Positions 13,078 to 47,200 of a stretch of DNA of 64,000 nucleotides are shown piece after piece. Made by a program: the position numbers and the translations under genes. The DNA is taken from NCBI GenBank assembly GCA_034687125.1, contig JAQGBZ010000025.1:1-64000 (forward strand), read 5' to 3'. The notes under the pieces were generated by a model. It was not told the origin of the DNA. It made no database searches and was given only the letters and a program-made list of their open reading frames with translations. Position 1 is the first letter of the stretch. Each line of letters starts with the position of its first letter. This DNA is from Neelides folsomi. Its lineage: Eukaryota > Arthropoda > Collembola > Neelipleona > Neelidae.

Positions 13078-13176
13078 TGTACTACTCGGGGTCATGGGAG
13101 TTGCGAAAATCTCTGGTTTGCCTGGAAGGTAGTCAAACCAGAGATTTTCTCAACTCCCATGACCGTGAGTAGTACA
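13078..13176. repeat. Long stem-loop (42-bp arms, 15-nt loop)
   Basis: Arms 13078-13119 and 13135-13176 pair at 39 of 42 positions, with mismatches only at arm positions 11, 12 and 27. The loop is 15 bases. The arms are more GC-rich than the neighbourhood. It could be a recent fold-back element or a microRNA-type precursor; neither is shown. Confidence 0.85.
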
Positions 13177-41947: not shown

Positions 41948-44092
41948 CTTCAAGTCCCTATTAGGATTAAATGGAGGAATTCAATCGATTGAACATTCAA
42001 CTTATGCGTGTACATTCCAAATACCCTTTTTAGACCTTTAGGTTCAGGAAGTAAAGGAAGTTTAGTCGATAAGATCATTCCCATATCATACCAAATTAGA
42101 TCTATTAAAAATGATTGTCTGCACTTAAGATTTCAGCTAGTGATATACTCCATTTAAATGCATTAAAAGTGATCGATTTTTTCATGTTAAAGAAATAAAG
42201 TTTATTTTTTATATTCTTCGCTCACACCCAATTAATATTATATCAATTTTTACACAATATTACATTTTTATCTTCATTTAGGACAATATATGAAATGTTA
42301 CACATTTGACTACCAATTACATTACCAATTAAGTAATTACTATATTTAAATATTTTTATTATCTCTAAGTTCTATGAATGGGACACTCGGACTTTACACA
42401 AAAATTTACAGATCTCTTTGTTAATTTTTATTTAAATAATCTATGAGAATCAACGTCTCAGTCTTAGTTTCATATAACTCATATTTATTTACTAGTAAAG
42501 TAATAATGCTAGTATTAAAGAATATGTTTAAGTTTAATTGTAAATCTTCAACCGTTGTGTTATTTGATATTACATAATACAGTGTCCTTAAAACATGGCT
42601 TAAGTTACTCGTAAATACGTTCCCATATAATATATTCTAGTTGTAGTTTTATTAAGCTTCACCAATTTATAATTGCTTGAACAATTGTTTATATTTTATA
42701 AGTAATATTGGTATCATGCATGATATTAATCAGTAGATAGAATATAACTTAAGATAATAGAGTTGTGTAATAAATTAAGATTTGTATAAATTAACAAATT
42801 TTTATATAATTAAGAATATAATTAAAGAAGCTCCTCATATGATATTTCACACATAAACTATTATTAAGTATAAAATATTGAATTAATAGTTATTTTTTAC
42901 GATAAAATTAATAGCTTACAATCTTAGTACATTTGTACCATCGTACAACTTTAGTTTATACAAACATTTTATTTTTAAATTATATATAATGTATTTGTAA
43001 TATTTCAAAAATCATTCAATTTAAATCTTTTTTCTCTTTTATATAATTGTGAACGTTCATTTTATAAATACGACAACTTCACACCAATTAAATTGGCTTT
43101 ATAAATTGCATTGATTTTTAAAAACTATTACAAGTTTTACTTCAAATTACAGAATAGACGACGGAACAAAACATTTCTAACAAAAATCATGTTTAACAAA
43201 TTTTATTTCTAAACACGTGTTTATTAACTAAAAGGAGAAGAAACCATTCAATAATATTTATATTATTCATTTATTACTAATAATTCTAAAATAATATATT
43301 ACAGTTACAGTATCTGAGTAATTTATTAATTCCAATCATTCATTATTCTTTGATATTTGTGTTCACATACTTAATAATTAATCAATTTGTACAAGAATCT
43401 CCAGTAATAATTATACACAATTACACGTGCCATTTTGGTAAACAGATCGACAAGGTTTTATACTTATGTATATCAAGTAAAATTTTAAACAAATCTTCAA
43501 TAATTTGGGTTATTTACTAGTTATCACAAAAGAATAAATAGAAAATGCAATTGAATAATTTGTATTTTAAACTACTCAAATTATTGCTTTTAGAATATTT
43601 TATACTCCATATTATACCTAATTTATATTATAAACTTTATAAAGTTTATAGACTTAAGGTCATTTAAATAATCATCCAACTTTAATTGCTGGTTACACCT
43701 TTAGCGGCTAATAATAAACAATTCAATCAACGTTTACACATAATATATAACAAATAAATATAGTCTTAAATTGTTTAGAAAATTCAATTCGACTCATTTT
43801 TTGTATCAACGAATGATATTTACTTAATTATTGTTAAACTTATTATCATTTTGGGACAATATGTATTTCTTAATATGTATACGTTTAAACATGAACATTT
43901 ATTAAAATATCGTAAGTTCGTGAAGGAGGATCAGCATTTACATTTAGCACGCCACTTAAACACATCTTAACAATTATACAAATATAATATTTTTAATCAT
44001 AAATTAATCATATCTCTAGTAAATACAATAATTATATAATCAATATTGTATAATTTAATTAAATATTAAATTACAATTTACAAACAAATTTG
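41948..44092. other. AT-rich spacer / mim 3' region
   Basis: Very AT-rich DNA that must include the mim 3' untranslated region on the minus strand. No gene or conserved motif was recognised. Confidence 0.5.
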
Positions 44093-44260
44093 TTAGGGCT
44101 CCTCCTTCACTCTTCTTCTTCCCATCAATTGAACACAAGTTGGTTTAGGAGGTAAAGGTGGTTTCATATAATTTCTCCCAACATATCTTGGCAATGTATG
44201 CCGCACTAATTTGTCTTCCGCGAGTCTCTCAAATTTAGCAACGAGGAGCCCTACGTGAAG
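44093..44260 (-). other. mim: In-frame 55-codon extension after the mim stop (readthrough candidate)
   Basis: The annotated mim frame ends ...NDRSAPRIQ-TGA (44263-44261). The next base is C, a context that favours readthrough of TGA. Without change of frame there follow 55 sense codons to a TAA at 44095-44093, including LLVAKFERLAEDKLVRHTLP, YVGRNYMKPPLPPKP and LMGRRRVKEEP. PPLPPKP is a proline-rich SH3-type ligand. The segment is clearly less AT-rich than the DNA beyond it. An alternative is splicing onto the CACGTAG acceptor at about 44250, which would enter the same frame. Confidence 0.5.
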
Positions 44261-47200
44261 TCATTGAATTCTCGGAGCAGAACGATCATTCACTGCCCGA
44301 GTCGTTCTTAATTTCTTTCCTCGACGGATTTGATCCATTAGTGATTCTCTGCAAATATTCGGATCAGATACAGTCTTAGACGAAATCCACTGTCTAACTC
44401 TCAAAGCAGTTGAAATTTCTCCAACTGAATTTCCTTTCCCTGTCGGTCCTTGATTCCCATGATGGCCAATAGCTCCAGCTAATTTGGCTGCAAAACTATT
44501 ATTATTATTACTCATATTATTTCTTGGTGGTTGTCGTGGAGGGGTTCGATCAGGACTTGGAGCTCTCATTGCACTCAATTTAGCATTCAATGTTTGAACA
44601 AAAATTTCTTTTGAGGTCATCACAGGTGGAGGAGTTCTTGTACCAAGGACACGATTTTGAACAAATGTTGCTGTTGATTTGAGTAATTCTTCAGAAAATC
44701 TTCTTGGGGTCGATCGTGGTAATGGAGCTGCTGAATCCACACGTTCATAAATTGGTTGTTGTTGTTGTGGAGGTGAAGTTGGAACATTTGGAGGAGTTCC
44801 TGGTTGTTGTGGATGATAAGGAGAATGATTGTTGTAGGAATTAGTTTGATATTGTCCAGGTGGAGAATGACTATAGGAATTATTTGGACTGTAAGGACCA
44901 CTCTGTGGAGGAGGATAATGTGAATTTTGACCCTGTGGATGTTGCCCATATGAATTCCCTTGCAAGTTGCTCTGTTGATGATTGTAGCTGATATGCTGTT
45001 GGCCACTGTAGTTATTTTGATGATTGGATTGAGGATTATAATTAGAAGGTTGATAATGCTGTTGGTTTTGTTGTTGTTGTTGCTGGGTTGGATAATTTGG
45101 TTGTTGTGGATGATGCCCATAATTGTTCTGAGGTGGCAACGACTGTGGCGGTAAGGGCTGAGGTGGCAATGGCTGTGGCGGTAAATTTTGTGGAGGTAAT
45201 GGTTGTGGCTTATGCACATATTGTGGACTGTAATTTGACTGTGAATTATGATTTGGATGTTGTTGATGATTTTGATGTTGCAATTGTTGTTGTTGTTGAA
45301 GATGCTGCAATTGTTGCAAATGTTGGTTTTGCTGCTGATGGTGATTTTGTTGTTGCTGTTGATGGTGATTTTGCTGTGGATTTTGCTGCTGATGGTGATT
45401 TTGTGGATTTTGGCCGTGATTGGACTGGACGTGATGATTCGGAGGACTTTGACCCAAGTTCCCATAAGTAGGTTGAGCTTGAGCATTTGCAAGCTTCTGA
45501 TTTAACACTTGCATAATTGTAGCTCTAGTTTTGGCAGCTTCTTCCAAAATCCTTGCAGTATTCCCTTGTGATCCTCGCCGTGAAGATGAACTACTCCGAG
45601 ATGAAGGAGACGCTGGAGAATTATTATGACTCCCAGTGGAGGAATGCTCTGATGAAGATTTCTCATCTTGTCGCAAATTCTTTCTAACCATGTTGGGACT
45701 CACAGGTTGATGGTTCTTTTCAGTAAGACTTTTAATTGTTTCAGCAACTGAAATTCGTCTTGACTCTTCTTGTAGTTGTTGTTGTAGGAGAATTGCAGCT
45801 CTTTGCTCAGCCGTAATGAGGTAAGCAGGTGGAGGAGGAAGTTGTTCCATTGATGCGTGTGGAGTCGTTTCGCTACTATCAACAGACGACGACGTTCCAG
45901 GAATTGACGATGAAGAATTTCCTCCGTAAACAGACATTGACTGATGAACATGATGAGGAATTGGAGACGAAGGAATTGATGAACCACGTGAAGGAGCCGG
46001 AGACGAAATTGCTGAATTTCGCCTAACTGGTGGTGGAGGTTTTTCTTGATTTCCGCATGAATTTCGTCTTGATCCAACTCGTAAATGCCCGTAAACAACT
46101 CCTGAATAAAATAATAGTAAAAATTAACATTTTAGAATTTCCGATACGAAAGTTGTCATCAACCTAAATTTATTCTACAATAATTTTAATTAATTAATTT
46201 TAATTTTAAAATTAATATGGCTTACTTGTATTTACTAATTATTTTAATATAAAAATATGTATATACAATTTACCCATACAAAATATATTAAAATAAACAA
46301 AGAGTGTAAGAAAGGTGTAAAAACAAATTAAAATGTCAATGTCCCATTGTGTACCTTGATTCCCATTTGTAAGCCGGTGTTTTGAAGTAGCAAGGGGACA
46401 ATGAGTAAAGTGACGGGCATTCCTGGGAAGAGTGCAATACCCCGATGAACCCCCGGCAAAGCATTTACAAACCCCATTACGAATTCTCATATCTAGAAAG
46501 GAAATTGGGGAAAATAATAAATTATAAATGTGTTATTTAGGCAAAGTATAAACATTGAGCAAGTGAACCAAAGCAAAAATTAAAGTTTTTATAATTTACC
46601 ATATTATTATTTATACAAGGTATGTACTAATATATTGGATTCAATTTAGACATAGTCAATCTAATCGAATTAATGAATAATTTTTATTTCTGCAAAAAAT
46701 ATATTAAAACCAAGCGGCAAATGATTTTAATTGTAAATTAAGCGAATTAGGGACATTTAATTGTAAATTAATAAAATATAAAAATTACTTTGTGACAATC
46801 CTGAAGTCATCTCATGCCGAAAAGAAGGACGTCGATTAACGGAACACATGGAATCATGCAGGTTCAAAAATGATTAAAAAATATAATAAAAATATCATGC
46901 AGACAGGTAAACAATTTATTATTGACAATTAATTATGTACCAGCCATGTTAAAAAAATAAAAATAAAAATACGAAACACGTTGTTTATTCAGCAAATTAT
47001 AAGCTAATACTTGAATGTTATTTTATTATCTTTTACGATATATTATAAATTATGTATAATATTTACAATAACATTTACTTATTGTAGAATGCATAATTAA
47101 ATTAATTAAATGAACGTGTATTTTTAGTTAATTTACTAGATTAATTACTCTAAATATATATTAAACTTATATACTCTAGTACTCTTAATTGTTATTATAT

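Follow-up and report, generated by a model that had tools for sequence, protein, structure and literature searches.

A candidate stop-codon readthrough extension of mim/MTSS1 enclosed by a predicted long-range RNA helix

Known readthrough systems and the mim stop

In the Drosophila gene dfr, readthrough of the stop codon is promoted by a stem that spans about +9 to +59, and shifting this stem by 3, 6 or 9 nt lowers the readthrough. The corresponding screen looked for a compact stem-loop with a terminal loop of 3-10 nt, lying within 60-80 nt of the stop (PMC13170385). A second Drosophila case of stem-loop-promoted readthrough is hdc, as cited in PMC5100048. The same source conjectures that readthrough is abundant in insects and crustaceans but not beyond Pancrustacea, and describes a tendency of readthrough genes towards TGA with a following C, while 851 readthrough candidates are given for the bumblebee (PMC7826183). 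Beyond animals, tombusviruses possess the long-range PRTE-DRTE readthrough elements, which are governed by an RNA switch (PMC3234231), and a further paper deals with readthrough in plant viruses (PMC9553062).

The locus that we compare with these systems lies in a stretch of 64,000 nucleotides (the window), which is part of a 390-kb contig (C25) in an assembly of 75.1 Mb and 840 contigs. Here, the mim/MTSS1 gene ends with a TGA-C stop that is followed by 55 open codons, and we consider it probable that this is a case of programmed UGA-C readthrough promoted by an 11-bp helix (helix 1) immediately downstream. In common with dfr/vvl, the locus has a coding-like second frame and a helix starting about 9-11 nt from the first base of the stop, the start of helix 1 at +11 being close to the +9/+10 of dfr. 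The two differ in that dfr combines a UAG stop with a compact hairpin, whereas mim combines UGA-C with a 138-nt loop, its helix enclosing the extension up to the second stop. As a loop of 138 nt is outside the range of the compact stem-loops of the dfr screen, we do not place helix 1 in the dfr class; by analogy, it may work like the dfr stem. The readthrough genes of fly and mosquito (PMC5100048) and of the bumblebee (PMC7826183) share with mim the TGA-C and the second frame; those cases rest on multi-species PhyloCSF, whereas that for mim rests on one genome. The likeness to the tombusviruses is of another kind: in both, sequence just 3' of the stop codon has a distant pairing partner towards the 3' end, and a second possible pairing stands in competition. 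However, the tombusvirus elements are part of a viral genomic RNA, lie about 3.5 kb apart and have the PRTE in a stem bulge, whereas those of mim belong to a cellular mRNA and are separated by 138-169 nt, making this an analogy rather than a membership.

The name "mim" is absent from the main texts of three readthrough papers (PMC3840789, PMC5100048, PMC13170385), as are MTSS and "missing in metastasis" from the bumblebee paper PMC7826183; mim may figure on one of the existing supplementary lists of readthrough genes. A literature search returned no title on point for mim or MTSS1 with readthrough and no paper that combined readthrough, alternative polyadenylation, RNA structure and an insect, and in its listings readthrough-linked RNA switches were confined to plant viruses.

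The mim gene and the frame behind its stop

The last coding exon of mim/MTSS1 (44264..46101, minus strand) specifies a proline/glutamine-rich part and a C-terminal WH2 motif, and ends in ...NDRSAPRIQ. Its open frame comprises 620 codons counted from 46123 on the minus strand, and the acceptor ahead of 46101 has a splice score of 5.7 under an approximate matrix. A PDB search with the C-terminus recovers the chain 2d1k_C ("Metastasis suppressor protein 1") with E 0.0054, aligning query residues 37-63 of 64 with residues 6-31 of 32 of the chain; WH2 chains of Spire and N-WASP score higher in this search, and the Pfam WH2 model reaches 13.3 bits, below its cut-off of 23.1. Just beyond the window end, on the minus strand like mim, lies a partial IMD domain (C25:64059-64220) that matches profile positions 143-196 of 219 with 32.3 bits against a cut-off of 26.2. 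The matched stretch contains one TAA, so the match may overrun the end of the exon. The IMD part and the C-terminal WH2 probably belong to one MIM/MTSS1 gene, which has in common with the family the IMD part, the proline-rich middle and the C-terminal WH2 ending NDRSAPRI, and differs from it by the candidate 55-residue C-terminal extension. MIM couples curved membrane to actin, and vertebrate MTSS1 itself presumably ends at the position matching the mim TGA. The genome has a second IMD match, at C270:39281-39424 (29.2 bits, above the Pfam cut-off), which is perhaps an IRSp53-type relative of mim.

The first stop codon, TGA (44261..44263, minus strand), stands in the context TGA-CTT-CAC and is followed by the candidate readthrough extension of 55 codons, LHVGLLVAKFERLAEDKLVRHTLPRYVGRNYMKPPLPPKPTCVQLMGRRRVKEEP (44096..44260, minus strand), and by a second stop codon, TAA (44093..44095, minus strand), the first two bases of which lie inside the downstream arm of helix 1. 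The first-pass annotation had described this TGA-C with exactly 55 in-frame sense codons before TAA, and we confirm it on the minus strand. The extension is also GC-richer, as had been claimed: 100-base windows within it range over 0.38-0.50, versus 0.15-0.29 at and past its end. The leaky stop context of TGA plus C is present; a point against readthrough is that positions +4 to +6 read CTT, where the UGA-CUA motif has CTA.

How often such a frame opens by chance depends on the reference chosen. Stop triplets amount to 6.5% across 264 kb of the contig, to 10.5% in the 593 nt past the TAA and, over all frames, to 5.4% within the extension. Shuffles with the composition of the extension leave 55 codons open in 2.6% of cases (2,000 open among 77,523); an equally long open run follows 405 of the 10,731 TGA triplets in 264 kb (3.8%; any frame, both strands); and among all 34,218 runs between stops in the contig, which take in real exons, 3.4% are at least 55 codons long. 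At UTR composition, an arithmetic estimate gives a chance of about 0.2%. The earlier figure of about one in a hundred is thus of the right order, our estimates covering roughly 0.2-4%, and since chance opens such runs at this rate, openness alone argues weakly for a coding function. The codon score and the RNA pairing weigh more than the open frame. Searches with the extension gave no Pfam family up to E 1 and nothing meaningful in the PDB (best E 0.27), and its DNA has one match in the genome in a search that skips very common words. Four pattern scans of genome_contigs and viral_contigs, two with the mim end and two with the extension, yielded 214, 48, 19 and 102 pattern-matching stretches; no relative of the last 59 mim codons or of the extension was confirmed among them, these being prokaryotic and viral collections that are silent on conservation.

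The codon model was derived from 29 other open frames of the contig (4,696 codons), likely exons that were picked by eye alone from 80 of 89 frames of at least 110 codons; the first 20 and last 8 codons of each were dropped, and mim was kept out of the training. Scores are relative to a segment's own base composition, and in-frame stops are skipped without penalty. The extension scores +3.3 bits in frame, and its +1 and +2 frames on the same strand score -5.9 and -8.2, with 5 and 3 stops. The reverse-strand frames, each with 2 or 3 stops, score -7.7, +1.9 (3 stops) and +9.1 (2 stops). For held-out coding segments the mean is 6.0 (sd 8.3, n=69, minimum -31.0); for shuffles of the extension's composition that stayed open (n=2,000) it is -11.9 (sd 5.5). 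Of these shuffles 0.3% reach +3.3, as do 6.5% of the other open runs of 55-79 codons (n=753), some of which may be real exons. Upstream of the TGA, mim yields scores of 7.0, 6.4 and 2.5 for its last three blocks of 55 codons and of -24.0 for the glutamine/proline-rich block preceding them, while the three blocks past the TAA score -35.9, -28.4 and -33.7, with 4-6 in-frame stops each. By these block scores the coding signal crosses the TGA and stops at the TAA, on a measure that is noisy, as held-out segments drop to -31 and one mim block to -24. The second frame after the mim stop bears a coding signature by this noisy, single-genome score.

Predicted pairing around the extension

Helix 1 is formed by arm 1, TAGGGCTCCTC (44243..44253, minus strand), at +11 to +21 with the T of the TGA as +1, and arm 2, GAGGAGCCCTA (44094..44104, minus strand), at +160 to +170. 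It is a perfect 11-bp duplex with a 138-nt loop and a predicted energy of -21.1 kcal/mol, and becomes a helix with 13 of 14 pairs if one mismatch is tolerated; arm 2 extends into the second stop, TAA. With pairing weights of 3 for GC, 2 for AU and none for GU, no dinucleotide shuffle out of 2,000 attains the weight of helix 1 when one arm must lie within the first 25 nt; one of 2,000 has 11 bp there at a lower weight, and two of 2,000 attain the weight anywhere in the sequence. Synonymous recodings retain such a helix in 14 cases of 5,000. Among the 10,731 TGA triplets in 264 kb, five are followed by a comparable helix, mim included, three of the others overlapping as one site, and mim alone joins the helix to 55 open codons. 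The word TAGGGCTCCTC occurs 4 times on both strands of the 75-Mb genome, two of the four being the arms of helix 1, and its reversed control word occurs 31 times. Since the helices were noticed by eye before they were tested, part of this significance is lost to the look-elsewhere cost. The folding energy of the whole region is not unusual (z -1.0 and -0.9), so we confine the claim to the specific helices and propose no globally structured region. Rfam searches were negative, both for 43500-44700 at E values up to 1 and for the whole window at gathering scores. At the level of these specific helices, the pairing potential at the mim stop exceeds chance. The CTTCAC directly after the TGA (44260-44255) also complements the GTGAAG at the start of the purine strand (44110-44105). 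Relative to the purine strand, the segments that follow the stop thus come in permuted order, and on geometric grounds this pairing should not coexist with helix 1.

The purine strand has a further partner downstream. Arm 2', GTGAAGGAGGA (44100..44110, minus strand), overlaps arm 2 by 5 nt and finds its perfect complement in arm 3, TCCTCCTTCAC (43920..43930, minus strand), within the presumed 3' UTR. The resulting helix 2 has a 169-nt loop and a predicted duplex energy of -18.6 kcal/mol, was reached by 0 of 2,000 UTR shuffles, and is mutually exclusive with helix 1. An exhaustive scan of 264 kb found 11 perfect inverted repeats this strong with a spacer of 20-220; helix 1 and helix 2 are two of the 11 and the sole pair with a common strand. 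A scan in steps of 7 found such a complement within 20-220 nt for 27 of 75,356 17-nt words and for 7 of 8,255 GC-rich ones; it returned no triple, missing that of mim too, which the exhaustive scan recovered. Elsewhere in the window, at 13090-13164, lies the inverted repeat GGTCATGGGAGTTG (14 bp, 47-nt spacer), which has the highest weight of 4 GC-rich inverted repeats in 264 kb.

Which of the helices is favored in folding predictions varies with the ends of the RNA. If the RNA ends before arm 3, helix 1 has a predicted pairing of 0.91-0.99 for 5' starts from 44253 to 44600, of 0.53-0.78 for a start at 44800 and of under 0.01 for one at 45000; if arm 3 is included, it ranges from 0.003 to 0.86 by context. 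The values of 0.003-0.012 predicted with the longer 5' stretch from 45000 count against the proposed role of helix 1. For an RNA from +11 onwards, which mimics a ribosome occupying the TGA, the prediction for helix 1 is about 0.98 up to 454 nt and 0.30 at 654 nt. Three motif matches are possible poly(A) signals on the minus strand: two ATTAAA before arm 3 (44054..44059 and 43992..43997) and one AATAAA just past it (43898..43903). Within the AT-rich presumed 3' UTR, the stretch 43850-43999, which contains arm 3 and has the AATAAA right behind that arm, has a GC content of 0.27-0.28, versus 0.18-0.21 on either side.

We offer as a doubtful further step that the three strands form an RNA switch that sets mim readthrough in an animal mRNA. 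Pairing of the purine strand with the strand after the stop (helix 1) would turn readthrough on, and its pairing with the 3'-UTR strand (helix 2) would turn it off. As the candidate poly(A) signals flank arm 3, the choice of the 3' end could decide between the helices and hence the amount of long MIM. Alternatively, this could be decided by the ribosome parked on the TGA.

Readthrough and its alternatives

In the readthrough that we consider probable, most ribosomes would terminate at the TGA and yield the MIM form ending at the WH2. By a minority, UGA-C would be decoded as an amino acid and the 55 further codons translated, and the MIM made in this way would have a basic tail with the proline motif PPLPPKP. 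With the UGA in the A site, helix 1, which begins to pair at the 8th base past the stop, would be located at the mRNA entry of the ribosome, where it might slow termination and favor a near-cognate tRNA; a ribosome reading on would then melt it. This presupposes that helix 1 forms in the cell and stimulates readthrough. The tail, if made, could act by binding an SH3 partner near the WH2-actin site, with PPLPPKP as a putative SH3 ligand. If this is correct, this arthropod has a second form of MIM in which a basic tail with a proline motif directly follows the actin-binding WH2, and readthrough signals would extend from compact hairpins to a helix that encloses the whole extension, touches the second stop and has a rival strand in the 3' UTR. 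Our results partly support the readthrough proposed for mim by the first-pass annotation, and add to it codons that are coding-like through the TGA as far as the TAA and a helix beyond chance at about the spacing that is effective in dfr.

The principal alternative, which we regard as unlikely, is that the frame is a chance opening in a normal 3' UTR that happens to be GC-richer over its initial 170 nt, and that the repeats arose by mutational accident, for example template switching, and have no role. The frequency of equally long open runs after TGA triplets (3.8%) is compatible with this, as are the ordinary global folding energy and the fact that the evidence comes from a single genome. 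Against it, the extension has a codon score like that of the last mim codons, with a fall to -36 directly past the TAA, two of the 11 strong perfect inverted repeats in 264 kb meet at this very place, and helix 1 appears in just 14 of 5,000 synonymous recodings. Chance is possible for the frame, but unlikely for the frame, the codon score and the helix jointly.

A coding-like extension would equally be expected if it were reached by splicing, either through a rare intron that removes the TGA or through an acceptor inside the extension that joins it to an upstream exon. On paper there are 297 in-frame GT-AG pairs that would remove the TGA. However, by approximate matrices the best acceptor in the extension scores -0.1 as against 5.7 for the exon's own, and the best in-frame pair sums to 0.7 and implies a 492-nt intron within the coding sequence. 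A splice that removes the TGA had been named in advance as an outcome that would tell against readthrough; such pairs exist, but their sites look poor by the approximate score, and we consider splicing improbable. A GT at 44254, in the extension seven bases past the TGA and just ahead of arm 1, has a donor score of 2.3, and a 3'-UTR intron might start there and take out the extension. The inverted repeat raises the further prospect of a small transposon relic (MITE) inserted just past the stop, with a TA, a 9-bp terminal repeat (GGGCTCCTC), the inverted repeat and another TA, and a length of about 156 bp in all. A mariner-type target duplication would leave flanking TA, and TA is indeed present on both flanks of the 9-bp arms, but the single genome match (in the DNA search that skips very common words), the mere 4 occurrences of the arm word in 75 Mb, 2 of them here, and the coding-like interior make a MITE highly improbable. 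We give the least credence of all to the idea that the assembly is wrong at the TGA, or that a recent nonsense mutation has shortened a longer protein, as the stop falls one residue past the match to the MTSS1 WH2 chain 2d1k_C.

Two further families were considered as readthrough controls. The Pfam model of headcase has no match in this genome and none in the control genomes either, and the POU genes, with 8 loci of which 4 were translated, provided no usable readthrough comparison. The assembly also contains a 15-kb mitochondrial contig (C742) with ND2, COX1, COX2 and part of the ATP6 region. Between COX1 and COX2 a probable tRNA-Leu(UUR) can be read by eye (motif TGGCAGA...TTTAAG), which was not called by ARAGORN (bacterial code) or Rfam. 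We take COX1 - tRNA-Leu(UUR) - COX2 to be the pancrustacean order; given how this tRNA was read, we infer from it that the assembly, with its small nuclear genome, is of pancrustacean placement.
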